A DNA stretch of 64,000 nucleotides from Polytrichum commune. Lineage: Eukaryota; Streptophyta; Polytrichopsida; Polytrichales; Polytrichaceae. Positions 1 through 45,703 of the stretch are shown here, piece by piece. The position numbers and the translations under genes were made by a program. Numbering within the stretch: position 1 is the first letter of the stretch; each line of letters starts with the position of its first letter. The notes beneath the pieces were generated by a model. It did no database searches, was not told the origin of the DNA, and saw only the letters and a list, made by a program, of their open reading frames with translations. The stretch is taken from contig OX485803.1 of the NCBI GenBank assembly GCA_950295325.1, positions 49,551,554 through 49,615,553 on the forward strand, read 5' to 3'.

Positions 1-3000
1 CCTTTGAAAGGCGACATCACTAAATTGGAGGCTGATTTTTTCAATGGTTATCGTGATGGTGACCGTGTGTTTTATCTATCGGCTACCGACTCTAAGGAAA
101 ATTTTCAATTTGTGGATGATAAGGTTCGTGCATCTTGGAGCCCAAATTGGGCTCAAGCTAATGCGGTGTTTAAAACTCAATTAGATGCCGATCCTTCATT
201 TACATCATACAAGAACAAGATGTTCTTCATATGGGATGGTAATCACAGATTTTTTGCTTGGAAAAGTTATATTGACCGTTTGCATACCGAAGATTACGAG
301 CGTCATGTCTTTGTCGATTCCATCATTTTGACGTCCGAGCTTGATGACATTCCAAGTTTGTTGACTGCTATGCACGACATCAACAAGTAATGCTCTTACT
401 TCTTTTTTTTCATTTATTTCTAGTTTGTATTTTGTTATTTGAATTATATCATCCTAAATTTATGAATTCAATATTTTTTCAGGTCAACAAAAAACTCTCA
501 CGTTTCTACCAATTTGGTGCATACTTTGTATCGGATGCAGAGTATTGGCACTATGTCTTTTACTTCTTCTAAAAAACAACTGGATCCTAGAAGTTATAAG
601 CGATGTGAGGAGAAGTCCGTCGAAACTTGGTATTCTTTGACGCGGCCAATTTTTTTTTATTACATGTACAGTGTAAGTTTTTCTAGCATTTTTTATTATG
701 TTTTTAATGTTTATTTATATTTCATTTACATCACATCTATATGTATTTATTAATTTTGGATTTTGTTTGATTTTTCAGCAAGAACTTGCCGAGTCTAGCG
801 ATATTGCTCTCAACCTTTACAATGAAACTCATCCTCTAGAACGAACTTCAGAAGGAGTTTCTAAAGCAATGTCCGCAGCTGTCAACAAAAAACGTGCAAT
901 GTTGTTATCTAGTTTTACAAAACAACTAGTGATTGCTGACATCAACCTCACCCCTGTTTTTCTTGAAAAAGTTAAGCACCATTGGGGTTCATTTTCGGTG
1001 CCGGAAATGTTACAAGAGAAACTTCATCGTGTTGCTGTTAGTAATGTGGATCCAGATGTCAAAGTCGGATGGCTCAAGCTTTGGAATGGCAATGATTTGA
1101 CAAAGATGCATTGCATTTCCCGAAATCACCCCTCTCTGATTTTGCACTTGATGATTGGTTATCAAAGTCTACATATTGGGCACAGTTAGAAAAAAAACTA
1201 TTGAAGAGCTTCAAAGTATTCTCTCATCTCCTCTTCAATTGCCTGCAGATGTGCCTACTATCTCCGAATATATCCAAACCTGGAAGTTTACGGCTTTCAA
1301 TTCAATATTCTATCGTGAATTCAAAAGCGGAAAAGTCAAAAAACACAACGTTTGAGATGAGCAACCGAATATTGATCTTACTATGAAGCGTGTTCTATAT
1401 AGGTACAACTTATTCTTTACTATTTCTTAATATTTTTTCATTACATTTTACTTTTCATTCAATATTTGGCTCATAATATTTTTGTGTGTAGGTATTTCCG
1501 ATATATTTTGATTCCGTACAAATGCGTTATAGGGGAACCTCGTTTTTTTCCAAATTGGCGTGACACTAGTGCGGAAGACTCATGCATGTTCACTACTGAG
1601 ATTTGTTTGGATTGGTCGCTCCCATACTATGAGGATTGTGATTGGTATCTTGATTGTCCTAAGGATGCATGTCCGTCAAGTGAGAAGGCAATCCGTCAGA
1701 TAAATGATGCCAAAAATGTAGATCCTCGTGATACTGCAATTTTGCAAGCACAAATTGTGCAGCTTAAACTTAGAGAGCCAGAACCAAAAGAGACAAAACG
1801 TCGTAAGAGAAAACATGTTCCTGAAACCAAAATACAAGGTCAATCGGAAATTTCACAACATGAAGAATTGCTTGTTCTTTCTATTGATTTGGATAAGAAT
1901 ACACTTGGAGGCGAAAGTTCAAAATCCGGGTGCGATGTATTGGAATTTCATTACTCGAGCACCTATGACGCTATTCATCGTGCGCCAACGAATGTTTTGA
2001 GAAAATAGTTATTCATACTGAAGAACTTTCTCACGCTCTCTTTTGCTCGATCTACTACTGTCAAGAACAAGTCTGAAGGGGTGGAAGTAGGCCTTCCTGA
2101 GTGGATCCAATGGCGGGCATTTCTTGAAAATGTAAGTAATCTTGATTTTGTATTTTCTCTAATGTTCTTACTTTCATTTGGGTTTTATTTTGTGTCTTAT
2201 ATTGTGATATGTTGTGGTATTTCAGTTCAAAGACAATCGCGAATTTCATGTCATGGGAAGTCCGACTCCCTTTGCCGTTGACTTGGTTTTCTGCAATTTC
2301 CGGACGGTCTTGACTTCAACCTCTCCAATAGACCTGCTGAAATTCCTCTTTGGAATAAATATGACAAAAACTGGATGGTTGCAACAATGTCCTTGTGCAA
2401 GTCCATCTTCTCTGATGATGGCGTCCTCATAGTATTTTCTACTATCGATATGCAAACCAAGAAGGTTTTGAATTCAACCTTACACAACGGCAACATGAAA
2501 GTTCTTAGGACTTTTATTTGCCTCAATTCGTACATGGTGTTCAAGGATCCGGAGTCTCCAACCTACACCGTAAGTATAACACATGACAATTGTTTCTATT
2601 TAATTATTTTGGTGTTATTTGCATTGTATATAGTTTTAACACAATTTATATTTTTTTGTAGACTCTGGCATTTATGGCTCATGTCTTGGTAAGAGATTTT
2701 ACTACCACAAAATCCACGAGACAACCAAACTCCACTTTTTTGGCATTGGATTGAAAAGCAAAACTTGCTTTTCAATTTTGTGGATGAAAAAAACATGTTT
2801 CTTCAAAAATCGGGAAGACCTTGGAGGGGGCCATATCAAAAATCGCCGCGTTTTTTTCAAGATCTTATTGAATTGTTTACACCATCGAATGGACGCGTTG
2901 TTGATTTGACATGTTCCACTGGAGCTTCTATCCTAGCAACACGCGCATGTGGCAGACATCTTCTTGCATTTGAGGGTGATAATGACATGTTTGAGCACAT

Positions 3001-3469
3001 ATTGAAACCGCTTTTGAAAAAGGTTTTGAAAGAGGTGTCATCTAAGGAGAATATACAAGATCTCACAAAAGAAGATGATGACCTCTCGGATGAGGAGATG
3101 CTTGAATTTGAGTGTGAGTAAGTTTTGATACAATAAATTTTTATTCAATTCATTCAATTCATTGGTTCATTTTTATTTCTTCACATTATTTACATGTTTC
3201 ATCGATTTGATTTCAGGAATACGATTGGAAATAGGACATGTCTCCTGTTTTGGGCACATAGACAATTCCTACGAAGTCCAAGCCGTAGCCCGCGTCTCCC
3301 ATCATATGCCGAGAATGTTGCAATTGCAATGTTGAATATCAAAGATTCGGATCCAAATGAAAAATCTTGCTATAGTTCCAAAATCAATTCGCAATGCAAA
3401 GGTGCTCGAATATATATAGATGACGAGGCAAAATATAGTTTCATGTCTAGTGCTACTAGTGATGAATAA
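1..3469 (+). pseudogene. ParB-like / DNA methyltransferase fusion gene, decayed, 5'-truncated by window edge
   Basis: Seven exons can be traced with GT-AG introns: 1-386, 483-672, 779-~1429, ~1492-2131, 2226-2569, 2662-3117 and 3217-3469 (TAA). Phases at the 386/483, 672/779 and 3117/3217 joins agree, so this was a real spliced gene. Exon 1 contains WDGNHRFFAWKSY, the DGxHR signature of ParB/sulfiredoxin-like folds. Exon 6 contains VVDLTCSTGASILATRACGR followed by LLAFEGDND, which resembles motif I of N4-cytosine/N6-adenine DNA methyltransferases. It lies downstream of a damaged DPP-like motif IV (about 2278-2310), the permuted order of beta-class enzymes. A basic RRKRKH stretch near 1800 could be a nuclear signal. 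Lesions: frame changes near 1110, at an A8 run near 1190, near 2000-2060, inside motif IV near 2295 and near 2730, plus an in-frame TGA near 1352. ParB plus methylase fusions are known in phages and bacteria; relatives in seed-free plants are recalled, not checked. Function of the ancestor is inferred. Confidence 0.6.
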
Positions 3470-6400
3470 ATATTTGGACTTCATGTTGTTTATCCTTCTC
3501 AACCCTCTTATTACTAAACCCTAAAATCATCATTTTTAAGGCCACAATTCCACGGTTATAGGATATTGGTGGCCCTATTACCAAAATTTTCATCTTCCTC
3601 ACTGCTCATAAGTTACCGCTCATCGCTCACCGCTCATAAGATAGCACTCCCCTTGTGGACTTGTATATTTTTTTGTATTTATCTTTGAGCATGTGTTTAT
3701 GCTTCACTTACGAGGTTGGATAGAAACACACCAATTTTTTAATATGATCTGACACACATTTTATTTCAAATCCCTAACAAACTTCTACATGTGCATGTTC
3801 ATGTGACTCACACTAATTATTATTGTCATGCTATTTTCATAATTGCACATATAGGTCTAGTGACCTTCATAATGTTTTGTACATCTAAGATCTAGTGTAA
3901 TTATTGTATTGATTTTCCTATTAGCATATTACTACTCCTTTGGTAAGATGAATTCACATAAGTGCAAACTCAATTGCATGATTTTACAAACAAATGTAGC
4001 AATAAATTCTACCAATTTTTTTTGGAATCATGAAACAAGTTCACTATAAAAAAAAAACCAATTTGATTGTATGTTATGAACAATTTCATGATTTGGTACC
4101 CATATTCACAACTTCACAAAATCAATTTCATGGATTGTATAACTTTATTTCACAAAGAACGGTACGTCATTTACAAGATTCTCCTAATCAATCCCCACGA
4201 TTAGCTCTACCAAAATTTTGATTGACCTCTCTTATCCAACCTTGGACCATGTTTTTAGAGATCACTTGTACATCGGCATTGATGTGACCTAACAATGTTC
4301 GATGATTTTGGAGACCACATGGTGCAAAAATATTTATGACATTGGTTTGGAAGATTCATGAAGTTAGAGGTAAAGGTCCACTATCATGAAATCAAGGTGT
4401 GCCACATGTCAAGTTGGTTTAGAAAAATCATGAACTAAATTAGAAGGTTCATGAAATTGGTAGAACACTCTGGCAACATGGGTTGGAAGGTTCATGAACT
4501 AGCTTGGAACCTTCATGAAATTGACTTTGCATATCTGTGAAGTCTTCTTAACAAAGGAGTATTACGTTAAAGTCCTCAAGTTCTAGATTTGACACCATTG
4601 TGACATTACTTTAGCACATTGAATGATGTTATATCATTACTTAAATTGCCTTATACTTATACATTTATCAATATGACCCACAATAAACCATACGAATTCT
4701 TTGGACGTGTATTTTCAAATCACAATATATCCAAGTTATATAAATACAAGTGGGTGTAATTTATCCTTTAACTTGTCCAAGGTCCTCTAAATGCACTACA
4801 CCGTTTATGATATTCAATGTCACGTACACTATTTGCAAACCCTAACATAGTTTCCATCACCAGTCTTGGATGCAACTTCTAAACTGGGCCATGTCAACGT
4901 TGGGCTCTCACCTTGGGGCCCACGCATGGTAGTCCCGTCGAAGCCTGGTGAAAACATTGATGATTTACTTTACCTGGTGTACATTGTCAATGTTTCATGG
5001 GATACATTAATGTGTGTCACACTGTTACATTGCAACGTTGGGCATGGGAGAACCATCCCCATAGACCATCATGCTACATCCGCCCATCAACAAAATGTAT
5101 GTAACATGATCCATGATCCATGATGTCTTGGAGCGGGAGTCTAGACATGGTATTTTGAATTGGACATGCATGGGCTTATTAGGGTTTAGGATAACAACCA
5201 CATATTTGAGTTGCCACCCTTATCTTCATTCACTATATATGGTTGCAAACTTTTGGTGTTTCAATTGGTTTGTGTAATGGACAATGTATTTGTTTCAAAG
5301 TACATTCTATGCAACAACAAATGTATTTAGTGAGTATGAATGGCTTTAGGGTTTTTTCATCCATCATGATGACCTTGTGCATTTTCTTTGTGGCGGCCAA
5401 CTTTGGGCATGCAAGAAGGAATCATTGGCATTGACTTGCATGCATGCCCTACTTTCTTCAATATTGTACGTGGCTCATCATTATTGGTAATATTGTCATT
5501 CTCTTTGTAACATTTCAATGTATGTTTAGAGCTTCAACATTGTGTCCACCTTCTCCCCCCCCCCCCTATTATATTAGTATGAAACACACAATGTATCATG
5601 AAACATCTTCTTGTTGACAATGTGATATACGATCCTTCCAAGTTTCATTCTCAAAATCCTTGCAAAATGCCTTACAACATTCCTTCACCTAACAATAAAG
5701 ACTAGATTCTCGAGAACATATCTTTCCTATCGGAGTTTTAATAGATTTTGCCTAACTATCAATGAGCGGTTAGGACGTTGGTGTCTCTTATGGATCTCGT
5801 AGACAAACCTTTCATATGAAATTCTACCAACAAGTTTTTGAAACTTCTTTTTTGGCTCCTCATTAATCATTACTTTCAAATTGCACATCCCATACTATCT
5901 ATTCTAGTATTTCTCCACTTCTCACAAGACATTTTGGTGCTACGCTCATTGTGCTATACAAATATGGACAAATTGAATTAAGAAGGGTTGTATTTAGACA
6001 TGCATGAAGTGCAACTAGAACAAATTGAAAAAGAAATGGTTCAATATCCTCCTCTTCGGTAGTTCAACCACCGAGACCTCATGTAGGACATACTTGCTCG
6101 TCACTATAGTGCCAACCACAAATCCAGGTTTGTCATGCGGTGCTACGTTCTCATTGATAAGGTCATTGACTTTTGCTTACCCATCTAGTAGTGGGGAACT
6201 ACTTATCACCTAGGAATTCCAGCTCTCTCATTGCTTCAAAACTCCCTTTTAATATTGATTCTACCGCCTACCATTACCCATATTGAATACTACCATGTAC
6301 CTCCGATCTTATCTTGACTCTATAGACTCCTTCACATAACATAATGTTGATAATTCAGACCTTGCTTCCAACTCTTAAGGTCCTTAATATGATTAACTAC

Positions 6401-37866: not shown

Positions 37867-38209
37867 CTCGGGGGGGGGGGGCAGTGTGTTAAAAAGTTAA
37901 GGATATAGGTGCGAACAACCACTATTTTATAGGGGGTAATTACTTTCAATTCTCTTCTTTTTTTTACATGCTATCATTATGTGATTTTCTACTTTGACTT
38001 AATAGAAAAATGGCTTGCATTACTTATAATTCCAAATTACTTATTATTCCATACCCTATAGTACTTTAAAGATGTCCAATGCCATTTTTGATACCCTATA
38101 TTACTCTTAAGTCCATTTATAAATTTTAGCCCCCATGTTTTTAAAATACCCTATCATTTGTTCGCACGTATATTGCTACTCCATCCAATGACTACCCCCC
38201 CCCCCCGAG
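37867..38209. mobile_element. hAT-type MITE with poly-G TIR, 343 bp, 8-bp TSD
   Basis: The element starts CTCGGGGGGGGG and ends CCCCCCCCGAG. It is flanked by the perfect 8-bp direct repeat ACTCTTCC (37859-37866 and 38210-38217). Inside, GGTGCGAACAA near 37909 mirrors TTGTTCGCACG near 38158. Eight-base duplications are typical of hAT elements. No coding. Confidence 0.8.
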
Positions 38210-38316
38210 ACTCTTCCTCTCCAATAGATCGTGAACTTACATGTGTTCATAACACCTAAAAATCTTGAATCCAAAGCTATGTGAATCTTGATTTATGTTG
38301 AATCCATATAATTGCA

Positions 38317-38324
38317 AGAAGAAG

Positions 38325-38354
<30 letters not shown>
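38317..38354. repeat. AAG/GAA trinucleotide microsatellite
   Basis: Twelve or so perfect AAG units. Confidence 0.95.
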
Positions 38355-38355
<1 letters not shown>

Positions 38356-38379
38356 CTTTGGTATGCCAAAGAATTTCAA

Positions 38380-39775
38380 TGGCATCCACTTTTCATGTTG
38401 ACTACAAATATGCGACGTTGCGGACACAACTATGTTTTTTTACACCACAAAAGAGTTTGTTTAACCCTCACCATAGTAACACAAATGTGCTTTCTATCCT
38501 ACATCCCACATCAATATCATTACACACTATTTGTTTGCGATTCATCAATACACAAACTATATCTACATGGCCTCCTATTCCTAACCCTAATGTTGCCACA
38601 AGCAAAACCTTCTCCGAAGTTGCTCCACCAAATTGCACCACCAAGCGCCAACCCCATAATCTCAACAAAGTCTCCATCACCAACCATCAGCAAGAATCTA
38701 AACCGATATGCTTCCTCTCAAATCATATGGAAACTCCCGAAGCTATTCAACAATACTCCTCACACCCACTATGAGATACATTGGCCCCGGCCAAAAGTAC
38801 ACCCAAAAGATGGAAAATTATATAGACACATGGCTCTCCAACACAAACATACACATAAAATGGTCAAATGTATTATGGACGCCCCATGGATTACAAGTGC
38901 ACAAGTGCACAAATAAACGAACCCTCGAATTTAGATATGGAAGATACTTTGGGAACTATTCAAAAAAGACACATCCTCAAACAAGACATGTCCCCGACAC
39001 AGAACCTATGCATAGCCCACCATAATAATATATGCATCCACCTACTATCATGTTGCACTAATAAACACATAAACAATCTAAGGACAAACTGACACAATAA
39101 AGCTGTACACACAATAGCAAAAACACTATTAGCCCACTCCACAACCCGGTGCTTTTCCCTAATCAACGCCGGTAACATTAAAGACCACATACCTGACAAC
39201 ACCATACCCTCATGGCTACTATCTTCCAAGATGTAATTGCCCAACTCGACTTAGACCTGATATATTATGCATTGTAGGAGCCCCACCCATAACTAAACCA
39301 CTCTTCACACCCAACCCAAACCTCAAAGTACAAATAATTGAATTCACTTACTATAATGATAGATTCCCCGCATAAGCCATTGACTAATTTTTTTACAAAT
39401 ACACCACTCTAAGCCCTAAACCCTATCCCAACTAAGATGGATTATACTACCACCCATTAGGATCATGGTAGGAATAAGGGGCACTATACACATAACAAGT
39501 GTTAAACTCCTCCAAGACCTACAAATTCCCAAACCCCAAAATCCATAAACTAATGGAATCCTTCTTCCAAATGCTACAAGGTACCTACCATACATAATCG
39601 TAAACAAAAAGGAAATTAGAAAAGAAATAAGCTTGGTCCCACTTGACTAAACACACTTACTACCACTAAAACCCCAAACTAACATAAGACACATAGCCCT
39701 AACACTAACCATACAACCCACCTATGAAAATAGGCACTACGCCATCCCCACTCTCACGCTCACACGGACATGAAA
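38380..39775. other. Strand-asymmetric A/C-rich segment, no gene called
   Basis: For about 1.4 kb the plus strand is rich in A and C and poor in G. Overlapping plus frames (38295-38774, 38395-38916, 38708-39025) and minus frames (38960-39244, 39416-39607) follow from that bias. None shows a reverse transcriptase, integrase or other domain that I recognise. Confidence 0.4.
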
Positions 39776-40309
39776 GGGAGGCAATGAATGAACATCGCAT
39801 GTCATGGTAAAAGACTTTGACGTTCCTTCTTGTTTTCTTTCTAATTGCAAACAAAGTCCACTTGCATGGAATACACCAAATTATTGTAAGTTGATATCAC
39901 CAAGCTTGGTTTACATAGCTTTGCCTTTATACCCTTGCATTTAGCGGGTTCATGTGTAGCCTTAAGTCGTGAGAAAGTACTTCCCTACAACTCTCTTTGG
40001 AAGCAGTGCTGCAAACATGAAGAAAACCATACAGATTTTTATCACATTAGGATACCATAAGCGAACCGGGCTACCAAACTTCTTAAGAGTTAACAATCAT
40101 AAAATATAGTAACATTTTGAAGCTTCACGCGTGGCAACATAATAAGGGGCCCTATTTGATCACTCAGTAAACATGAAATTCCTTCACTTTGAGTATGAAC
40201 AAGACGTAGACACGGTTTTGATTTGCCAATGATCTCGCACTAATTTTGTGTTTCATATGCTATGAGGAGTGGGTGCAAAGAGAAAAGTGTAGTTTTAAGA
40301 CCCACTTAC
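39776..40309. other. No recognised gene
   Basis: Unassigned spacer before the satellite. Confidence 0.35.
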
Positions 40310-43831: not shown

Positions 43832-45007
43832 AAAAACTCAGAAGAACTCGTACGAATAGGAGTTGTATTGCAACGCCAACATGCAATTGCGAATGAAGAT
43901 TTTGTTGAAGAATGTTGGCTGACGGTAGGCAGGCTTTGTAAGTGAACCTTATCGAAGTTTCTTTTAACCTCCGACGAGAGTTTCTCTCTGTTGTTCCGGC
44001 TTTGGAACCTTTGAGTTCTGAGCTCTTTTCGTCGCGTGGGAACTACAGACTATGAGATAGTAAGGGTTCCTCTGAAGGATAACAAGCAAGGTGGTCTCGC
44101 TGTTTTCACATGGATTTTCTAGGTTATGGTCCTGTTCGTTGGTTATGCTGATATCCTGGAGGTTTGTGGAGGACGTCGGTAGAGGGTGTACGCTACATTT
44201 AAACAATGGACCTCCCAAAGTGTGTTGGTTTCTGTGCACAAGAAGTGAAAGTCATTTTGGATGCCCGAGCCTAATCCTTTTATCATCGCCTGTATGACCG
44301 TATCAGATGATAAGGAAAGCTTCTATGTGGTGCACCATAACTACCTGTTGTAGAGAATGTCGAAGCATCAGACGATAGAGCGGCCAGGGCTTTATTTTTC
44401 ATCTTGTGTTTTCTTTTATCTGTGCAGGGGGTAGAATCAACAATTCACCGCGTTTCAGGAAGGCTGACAAAATGAGTTTCTCAACGAGAACGACGTATTG
44501 GTAAGTAAAGCTCGAAGATTGCAGTGGTTTTTGAGCTGAATCACATACTAGTGTTATTGTCAATAGTTTTAGGAGTCTGATGAAGTTTTCACGATCACCG
44601 TCACCTCTGTTGAGACGAGAACGTTCCACGTCCTACGAGATTTAAGGAATGTTGGCCGTCGAGCCGATGCTATATTTTGGAAGACTATTCTCTGTAGATA
44701 TCGATAAATGGGTTCTAGTTACGGTTTGATCGGGATTGGCGTATGTTGGCGGCGTAGCATTACATTACAGGTAAACGTCTTAGGGGTGATGAAGGTGCTG
44801 AGAGGTCGTTTGCGTTTATTGCAGGAGTCGAAGGACACTACATTGAAGCAGTTTCTGAGAGTTCTGGCTGGGTGGGTTACTGGCGAGTCGACCACCAGAA
44901 GTAGTTGTTACGGTTTTATGAGTAGATAATCATGAAATAGTTTGGCAGGGTTTATAGAAATCAGGTTTATTGGAGACAGATACTATCGGGGAGTGCAAAG
45001 GTTTGAG
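41641..45007 (+). promoter_or_regulatory. GC-richer upstream/leader region of the AT-hook gene
   Basis: The composition shifts from AT-rich to GC-richer DNA with transcript-leader character. Microsatellites: GAAA (41951-41975), GGCT (42060-42083), CGCA (42223-42241) and GT/GA (43794-43830). Acceptor-like pyrimidine-AG sites occur before 42840, 44430 and 44964, so one or more 5'-UTR introns are possible, but I cannot prove the exons. Overlapping frames on both strands (for example 41737-42051, 42399-42653 minus, 43303-43764 minus) show no conserved domain and are not called genes. No convincing TATA box. Confidence 0.4.
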
Positions 45008-45703
45008 ATGGAGGCGGAGCCTGCAACTGTGCCGCCTGTGAAGCGGCGACGAGGAAGGCCCCGCAAGAGTGAAGTGGCTGGAGTAACCCCAGGTGGAGAG
45101 AGCGGAGGAGAGTTTGCTACTCCTCAGAAATCAACTGATCCAAACAAGCAGAAGAGGCCAAGGAAGAAGAAAGGAGAGACGCCAGGAGGAGCCCCTACCA
45201 TTGTGGATGTTTCACTGATTGGTCAGCAGGTGACCGGCGTTTTGGATGGAACCTTTGATGCTGGCTATCTGTTGAGTTTGAGGGTTGGAAATACGGACAC
45301 TGTATTGCGGGGTGTAGTTTTTGGTCCTGGGTTGTCTGTTCCAATCACTAAAATCAATGACGTTGCGCCGAGTGTCAAACTTGTTAGAAGAGATGATAAG
45401 TTAGTACCTCCTAAGCCTGTAGCGCCTATACCCTTGGCATTCATTCCGAGCCAACCTGCTGTTGTCCTTCCTCCTCCCGGTTCCATCCCCCCTACATCAG
45501 CAGTATTGGAAGCCGCAGCTGCAGTGCTTACAAATCCTGCGAGTGCATCGTCTACTGCACAACTACCAGCCACAGGGTTGTCAGCAGCTTTGCAACAACT
45601 ACCAGGTGGGGGTTATAACCCTGAACCAACAGCATTTGCCCATGTAGCTTATCAAAGTGAAGCTGTTCAGAAACCGCATGTCAATGTGCAGTCGGGGGCT
45701 TAG
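45008..45703 (+). CDS. AT-hook protein, METABOLIC NETWORK MODULATOR 1-like
   Basis: A 231-codon single-exon frame. Start chosen at ATG 45008 (MEAEPATVPP); the frame is open upstream to 44942 but without an in-frame ATG. Residues 12-20 are a classic AT-hook (KRRRGRPRK), which binds the minor groove of AT-rich DNA. A second basic patch, KQKRPRKKK (47-55), could serve as a nuclear signal. Residues about 70-115 hold the family block: GQQVTGVLDGTFDAGYLL, then RVGNTDTVLRGVVF and PG. The C-terminal half is rich in Pro, Ala and Gln and likely disordered. This organisation matches plant AT-hook proteins of the MNM1 type, a nuclear factor affecting primary metabolism in Arabidopsis; that assignment is from memory. 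It is the only apparently intact gene in the window, with no stop or frameshift. Confidence 0.85.
   Translation: MEAEPATVPPVKRRRGRPRKSEVAGVTPGGESGGEFATPQKSTDPNKQKRPRKKKGETPGGAPTIVDVSLIGQQVTGVLDGTFDAGYLLSLRVGNTDTVLRGVVFGPGLSVPITKINDVAPSVKLVRRDDKLVPPKPVAPIPLAFIPSQPAVVLPPPGSIPPTSAVLEAAAAVLTNPASASSTAQLPATGLSAALQQLPGGGYNPEPTAFAHVAYQSEAVQKPHVNVQSGA

Follow-up and report, generated by a model that had tools for sequence, protein, structure and literature searches.

A methyltransferase-derived gene of Polytrichum commune lies in a multicopy DNA transposon and may encode a DNA reader

What is the spliced, methyltransferase-like gene found at the start of a 64,000-nucleotide stretch of Polytrichum commune DNA (GenBank assembly GCA_950295325.1, contig OX485803.1, positions 49,551,554 to 49,615,553, forward strand; hereafter, the window), and what could its protein do? 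A first-pass annotation, made from the letters alone, had read it as a member of an acquired DNA-modification gene family, joining a ParB-like DGNHR motif to a permuted DNA methyltransferase and decaying at this locus. The analysis reported here shows that the gene belongs to a multicopy DNA transposon bounded by terminal inverted repeats, of which it forms the right-hand gene; it is not a host gene in decay. As to its protein, we tentatively favour, at a little under even chances, a retired methyltransferase that reads DNA, by which the element would recognize itself and counter silencing.

Positions 1-3469 of the window contain seven exons and six introns, every intron with GT-AG borders. 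In a sister copy of the element, E2 (C1:63.98 Mb, loci L008 and L007), the seven matching exons splice into a single open frame of 1,076 amino acids. The features of the window copy (E1), in window coordinates, are the following:

1-386, plus strand: 3' part of exon 1, with the DGNHR-motif domain, ParB/sulfiredoxin (Srx)-like by motif only; the start lies upstream of the window, in locus L005.
483-672, plus strand: exon 2, with GT-AG borders and 85.8% DNA identity to E2.
779-1402, plus strand: exon 3, middle region with no domain assigned; disrupted here, with two gap positions relative to E2.
1492-2131, plus strand: exon 4, middle region with the basic stretch KRRKRK.
2226-2569, plus strand: exon 5, first half of the methyltransferase domain, in which the family A motif IV, QFPDG, replaces DPPY; disrupted here.
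2662-3117, plus strand: exon 6, with the S-adenosylmethionine (SAM) motif DLTCSTGAS and the acidic FEGD; disrupted in the window copy.
3217-3469, plus strand: exon 7 with the stop codon, from the alignment to E2.
3598-3652, no strand: right terminal inverted repeat, containing short subrepeats of the CGCTCA type; the element's left terminus lies at L005:2982 (C1:49544535).
3653-3662, no strand: right-hand copy of the exact 10-bp duplication of the target site, TTGTGGACTT, whose left-hand copy stands immediately before L005:2982.

The six GT-AG introns and the uninterrupted frame of E2 bear out the proposal of a spliced, phase-compatible gene, and E2 is an example of the open paralogues that exist elsewhere in the genome. 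The motifs named by the first-pass annotation are all present where it had placed them, that is, DGNHR in exon 1, a PDG stretch in exon 5 and VVDLTCSTGAS followed by FEGD in exon 6; in the E2 protein, DGNHR is found at residue 190, FPDG at 750, DLTCSTGAS at 922 and FEGD at 944. Since the window copy is gapped relative to E2 in exons 3, 5 (one position) and 6 (two positions), its frame is broken, and the description of a gene decaying at this locus was correct. As for the extent given to the gene, the exons within 1-3469 are real, but the gene begins upstream of the window, and its place as one half of a transposon had gone unnoticed.

The window copy is 10.7 kb long, running from C1:49544535, to the left of the window, to window position 3652, and E2 is 11.7 kb long. 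The element ends read GAGGGAAGCTATCTTATGAGC and GGGGAGTGCTATCTTATGAGC, with one base changed at the left end of the window copy. The termini of E2 form a 62-bp inverted match at 87% and are flanked by the 10-bp duplication CTGCCTACAC. The terminus pattern (both ends, at most one mismatch) occurred 489 times in the genome and not once in a reversed control. For other copies, 60 bases were inspected at each end of 20 facing terminus pairs, picked by eye and not comprising all those visible, among the first 100 listed places, which cover C1 and part of C2. An exact 10-bp duplication was found in 16 pairs, a 10-bp duplication with one mismatch in one and an exact 9-bp duplication in another, while two pairs had none. 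No obvious duplication was seen around B1, a family B element with both termini present. Abrupt unit borders were common to the four copies compared over 9-25 kb, one of which, E4, is without the right terminus, and the short subrepeats of the terminal inverted repeats are of the same kind at the ends of families A and B.

Each of the three second-gene exons searched gave at least 150 matches, spread over all seven large contigs, and exon 6 reached at least 151 in the 408-Mb genome (150 of 1,494 candidates scored). A host DNA-modification gene family merely lying near repeats, in keeping with the spliced structure and the open copies, is largely refuted and highly improbable, because the gene sits within units bounded by terminal inverted repeats and target-site duplications, beside a transposase gene, and in this many copies; the same anatomy overturned the earlier claim of such a family. 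To the left of E2, at L008:89-3823, there is likely a further DNA transposon, with frames matching DUF4218 (expectation value, E, 1.4e-37) and one more long frame.

The gene in the left half of the element is on the opposite strand and encodes a transposase-like protein; it too is spliced, with open frames of 742 and 455 amino acids in E2. A SWIM finger was matched in the transposase frames below the cut-off (E of 0.076 and 0.12), with the CxC...CxH pattern visible, and the frames gave no match to PF10551, the core domain of Mutator-like elements (MULEs), to NCBIfam or to PDB. The pairing of the two genes was evaluated on 150 listed rows for the transposase and 150 for the GNHR exon. Among these matches, 95 of the 150 GNHR-exon rows had a divergent upstream transposase row within 12 kb (chance 0.9% per copy), one had a transposase in another arrangement and 54 were without a partner. 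The target-site duplications of MULEs are reported to range from 8 to 11 bp (PMC6446971); the 10-bp duplications fall within this range, and the terminal inverted repeats are usual, though not universal, in MULEs. The element is thus MULE-like in build (duplication length, terminal inverted repeats, SWIM-like finger), and it was not filed as a MULE because the core-domain test failed. Pfam, NCBIfam and PDB supported no named superfamily for the transposase. Zisupton/KDZ elements were also considered for the parallel in their cargo, and were dropped since their target-site duplication is 8 bp against the 10 bp observed here.

By comparison of protein profiles, the methyltransferase half (METHYLTRANSFERASE) of the second protein is real, its ancestry being well supported and the match far beyond chance. 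Exon 6 alone matched phage DNA methylases at E of 4e-3 to 0.3 in the rows shown, and the joined exons 5-7 of E2 aligned with positions 30-218 of the 221 of PF01555 (E 5.4e-4; 20.4 bits, below the cut-off of 26.7). DNA methyltransferase families in PHROG were matched at 6.2e-8 (family A) and 2e-6 (family B). A profile of four rows from families A, B and C retrieved DpnA (5hek, 2.5e-4) and CcrM (6pbd, 1.7e-3) from PDB, while weaker matches (E of at least 0.08) included unrelated chains. The methyltransferase part of phage ParB-methyltransferase fusions was aligned by hhalign at P 2.6e-9, the fusion profile comprising 51 of 54 proteins retained from 85 loci by a filter for DPPY-like and ParB-like motifs. 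The order is permuted, motif IV preceding the SAM motif I, and D, TGAS and ExD are invariant in all four aligned rows. The permuted methyltransferase domain first read from the sequence is supported by the PHROG, PDB profile and hhalign matches.

Motif IV, on the other hand, has changed. The CcrM/DpnA profile alignment places DLiivdlPdGL opposite DLIFADPPYNL, and the motif reads QFPDG in family A (FPNG in its copy E3), DLPEG in family B (L015, L016 and L018), EYPDG in family C (L013 and L014) and DVPEN in L148. The catalytic [DNS]PP[YFW] is absent from every family read and is typically replaced by [D/E/Q]xP[D/E][G/N], the catalytic aromatic being swapped mostly for an acidic residue (D or E). 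DVPEN, the form nearest to DPPYN, belongs to a locus of a diverged family (L148:1-4753), in which the transposase piece is also diverged, at 38-52% identity.

In the N4CMT of bdelloid rotifers, activity is abolished when the Ser and Tyr of SPPY are replaced by Ala (PMC8885841). Because the catalytic aromatic is replaced here and that mutant is inactive, we infer that ordinary methyl transfer has probably been lost in the second protein; the missing DPPY argues against ordinary base methylation, which had been one of the roles envisaged. The alternative that the second protein is still an active DNA amino-methyltransferase despite its changed motif IV, and marks the element's own DNA with N6-methyladenine or N4-methylcytosine, would agree with the SAM-site residues invariant in four rows, with the position and proline of motif IV being kept and its first residue often D or E, with purifying selection on the gene and with palindromic repeats of a kind that suits a methylase target (both described below). 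Against the replacement of the aromatic, mostly by D or E, and the inactive rotifer mutant, we consider it distinctly unlikely.

At the other end of the protein, [DE]GNHR is conserved in all five divergent rows aligned, from three families, and the order of GNHR, motif IV and SAM motif matches that of the phage fusions. The ParB-like character given to exon 1 did not hold beyond the presence of this motif, since all further comparisons failed or were at chance. The GNHR part matched no Pfam family, its profile found nothing meaningful in PDB, and tblastn of the domain against phage sequences gave no match. One of three rows scanned against PHROG matched a 'ParB-like' family at E 0.11, and hhalign of the domain against ParB gave P of 0.16-0.27, with and without a 44-column insert, a result equalled by 29 of 100 column shuffles. 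The ParB assignment was set aside, and a ParB/Srx relation of exon 1 would be a matter of the motif only. The full exon-1 frame of E2 gave a weak Pfam match to NTR2 (E 0.0015; 18.6 bits, cut-off 27) at residues 43-117, outside the GNHR part, which was taken as compositional. Single-sequence AlphaFold2 (AF2) modelling of the window exon 1 reached a mean predicted local distance difference test (pLDDT) score of 36.5. Separately, three small, bacterial-looking contigs of the assembly, C10, C12 and C23 (loci L020, L021 and L022), contain ParB proteins as well as two fusions of ParB to a DNA methyltransferase, in which DPPY is intact; they are likely contamination or associated bacteria or phage. 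Contig C8, by contrast, has rbcL followed by accD, a gene order that marks the host as a land plant.

Does the element need this gene? Ratios of nonsynonymous to synonymous substitution (dN/dS) were calculated against E2 by the Nei-Gojobori method, skipping gapped or stop codons. The window copy gave 0.20 (831 codons), E3 0.18 (840), E4 0.32 (840), L002 0.40 (549) and L003 0.48 (535); the second gene is under purifying selection. A captured passenger, drifting and without function for the element, agrees with the stop codons in many copies and with the broken window copy. It is weakened by the dN/dS of 0.20 in the widest comparison, by the persistence of the gene across families in which second-gene identity is only about 40%, and by at least six elements that, by inspection, are free of stops in all four stretches searched (one of the transposase and three second-gene exons), and it is now quite improbable. 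Between the window copy and E2, dS is 0.45 in exon 1 and declines steadily to 0.02 in exon 6; this mosaic points to recombination or conversion among copies.

The two genes of the element have discordant histories. Counting tblastn-alignable residues only, which are fewer in the second gene (exon 7 missing from B1 and B2, and exon 4 from B2), the transposase is 86.2% identical between A and B1, 79.1% between A and B2 and 77.2% between B1 and B2, while the corresponding values for the second gene are 40.3%, 37.5% and 58.4%. B1 thus combines a transposase resembling that of A with a second gene resembling that of B2, and the second gene has either been exchanged between lineages or diverged faster than the transposase. 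Outside the P. commune genome, no relatives were found at tblastn E ≤ 1e-3 in viral and genome contig scans with both profiles; these scans reach only sequences containing the chosen short peptides, and absence is thus not implied.

The noncoding DNA between the two genes carries arrays with long perfect palindromes, different in lineages A, B1 and B2. The A core, GTGCGTTAACGCAC, is present in eight copies in the window element, six in E2 and five in E3, the longest palindromes reaching 34-40 bp; the B1 core, TTTCGGTACCGAAA, has four copies (longest 36 bp) and the B2 core, TCTCGGATCCGAGA, three (longest 32 bp). For each element or piece, 20 Markov sequences served as controls, scored for the number of palindromes with arms of at least 7 and not for repeated cores; the means were 0.3-1.25 and the maxima 2-4. 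The A totals of 9, 6 and 6 exceed every control (maxima 3, 2 and 4). In 40 kb of the window, four palindromes with four different cores were found, and on these two grounds chance was set aside as an explanation. For the 24-bp A palindrome there are 411 places, and among the matches listed, all on C1, 50 of 50 are inside elements; five of these 50 share one 41-kb interval between transposase and GNHR rows. An 18-bp B1 palindrome has 41 places, of which 20 are no more than 15 kb from a listed element row. A second A repeat, TTTGGGTCG-NN-CGACCCAAA, stands in the transposase intron and ahead of exon 1 in E2 and E3. Two further tracts were noted in the noncoding DNA: a TTG/TGGTGTTGC-type triplet-like repeat just upstream of the window copy exon 1 (L005:9311-9424), and an insertion resembling a miniature inverted-repeat transposable element (CTGCAG / AAAGAACCGC arms) in a second-gene intron of family B (L016:2747-3078).

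Under the retired-methyltransferase reading, the second protein, of about 1,076 amino acids with a GNHR N-terminal domain, a long middle and a permuted amino-methyltransferase, would most likely no longer methylate DNA. It would bind DNA sequence-specifically, recognizing the repeats between the two genes of the element, with the palindromes as putative targets, and, in the manner of VANC in VANDAL elements, would keep the element active by countering host silencing or steering its own promoters. We infer these four parts (DNA binding, the palindromes as target, loss of catalysis and anti-silencing), and we favour the reading because the layout resembles that of VANDAL and VANC, here with a methyltransferase-derived protein.

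Second proteins of the TnpA or MURB type are generally described as binding repeats to assemble or regulate the transposase. A transposition helper of this kind, binding subterminal or internal repeats with no part in anti-silencing, would fit the divergent two-gene layout, the subrepeats of like kind at the A and B ends and the purifying selection on the second gene. A and B1, with similar terminal inverted repeats and transposases, have second genes that are only 40% identical, odd for a partner of both, and we regard a helper as unlikely.

Several observations weigh against a MULE-like element whose second protein reads private palindromes. None of the PF10551 places listed in the genome coincides, by inspection, with a listed transposase row, and in L148 the transposase piece and the methyltransferase exons lie on one strand instead of diverging. 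The B1 and B2 palindrome totals, four each, equal the Markov maximum of four, so that only length and repetition stand out there, and 21 of the 41 B1-type palindromes are not tied to any element. Families C (two pieces of about 6 kb) and D (16 kb) contain other tandem repeats and no repeated perfect palindrome. The TTTGGGTCG-NN-CGACCCAAA repeat is not private to the element, because it also occurs outside elements (in L007 past the right end and in the B1 left flank) and is missing from the window copy. Finally, the SAM-site residues are kept, which would be superfluous in a pure DNA binder.

A fuller history, which we regard as doubtful, would have a captured phage-type (ParB-)methyltransferase turned into a retired, sequence-specific reader that defends the element, co-diversifies with its private palindromes and is swapped independently of the transposase. 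The VANC strategy would then have arisen a second time, unrelated to the first.

Elsewhere in the window, positions 44936-45703 hold an open frame of 255 amino acids with an AT-hook-like stretch, RRRGRPRKS, probably a host gene, and positions 38001-40000 show an unusual strand asymmetry (GC skew -0.35, AT skew +0.16).

DNA-modification genes are already known as cargo in TET/JBP transposons (PMC12730594) and in DNMT-bearing retrotransposons (PMC5890265). Among titles and abstracts of the open literature, with few subscription papers or preprints covered, none was found that describes an amino-methyltransferase gene carried by a MULE or other plant DNA transposon, and the word 'methyltransferase' does not occur in the main text of a MULE survey (PMC6446971). 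With TET/JBP and DNMT cargo and with VANC, elements confront chromatin silencing with proteins of their own. If the favoured reading is true, an amino-methyltransferase-derived protein in a MULE-like element would be a new protein class in this contest and would show a route for remaking a bacterial-type enzyme into a DNA reader. The element supplies test pairs, namely the protein, a candidate palindrome target and sister lineages with other palindromes. It also calls for caution in annotation, as a gene labelled 'plant 6mA/4mC methylase' may be transposon cargo.

One close likeness is to the Arabidopsis VANDAL elements, whose VANC protein binds repeated noncoding motifs of the element and induces methylation loss; its targets are often tandem repeats varying between related elements (PMC5735166; PMC10398659). 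Both systems combine a transposase with a further gene, and in both, the noncoding repeat arrays (here in lineages A, B1 and B2) and that gene diverge between relatives. They differ in that the second protein here is methyltransferase-derived, the comparison being one of layout and with VANC taken from descriptions only, that the transposase gives no MULE-core match, and that anti-silencing is a proposal. The fungal TET/JBP elements are likewise DNA transposons with a DNA-modification gene swapped between transposon lineages (PMC12730594), but their cargo is a dioxygenase, in fungi and in other superfamilies, whereas here it is a relative of amino-methyltransferases in a land plant, and probably non-catalytic. 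Retrotransposons of dinoflagellates and charophytes, one of these lineages being related to land plants, also carry a DNA methyltransferase-type gene, in their case a C5 enzyme of host origin that has been shown to be active (PMC5890265). The phage and bacterial ParB-methyltransferase fusions (L021, L022, L026 and others) share a homologous methyltransferase part and the order in which a [D/A/G]GxxR-type motif, motif IV and the SAM motif follow one another. Their DPPY is intact, they have neither introns nor a long middle, and their N-terminal domain shows no significant similarity to the GNHR domain. The bdelloid rotifer N4CMT is, like the second protein, a bacterial-type amino-methyltransferase in a eukaryote, but it is an active host gene product with SPPY that silences transposons rather than riding one (PMC8885841).

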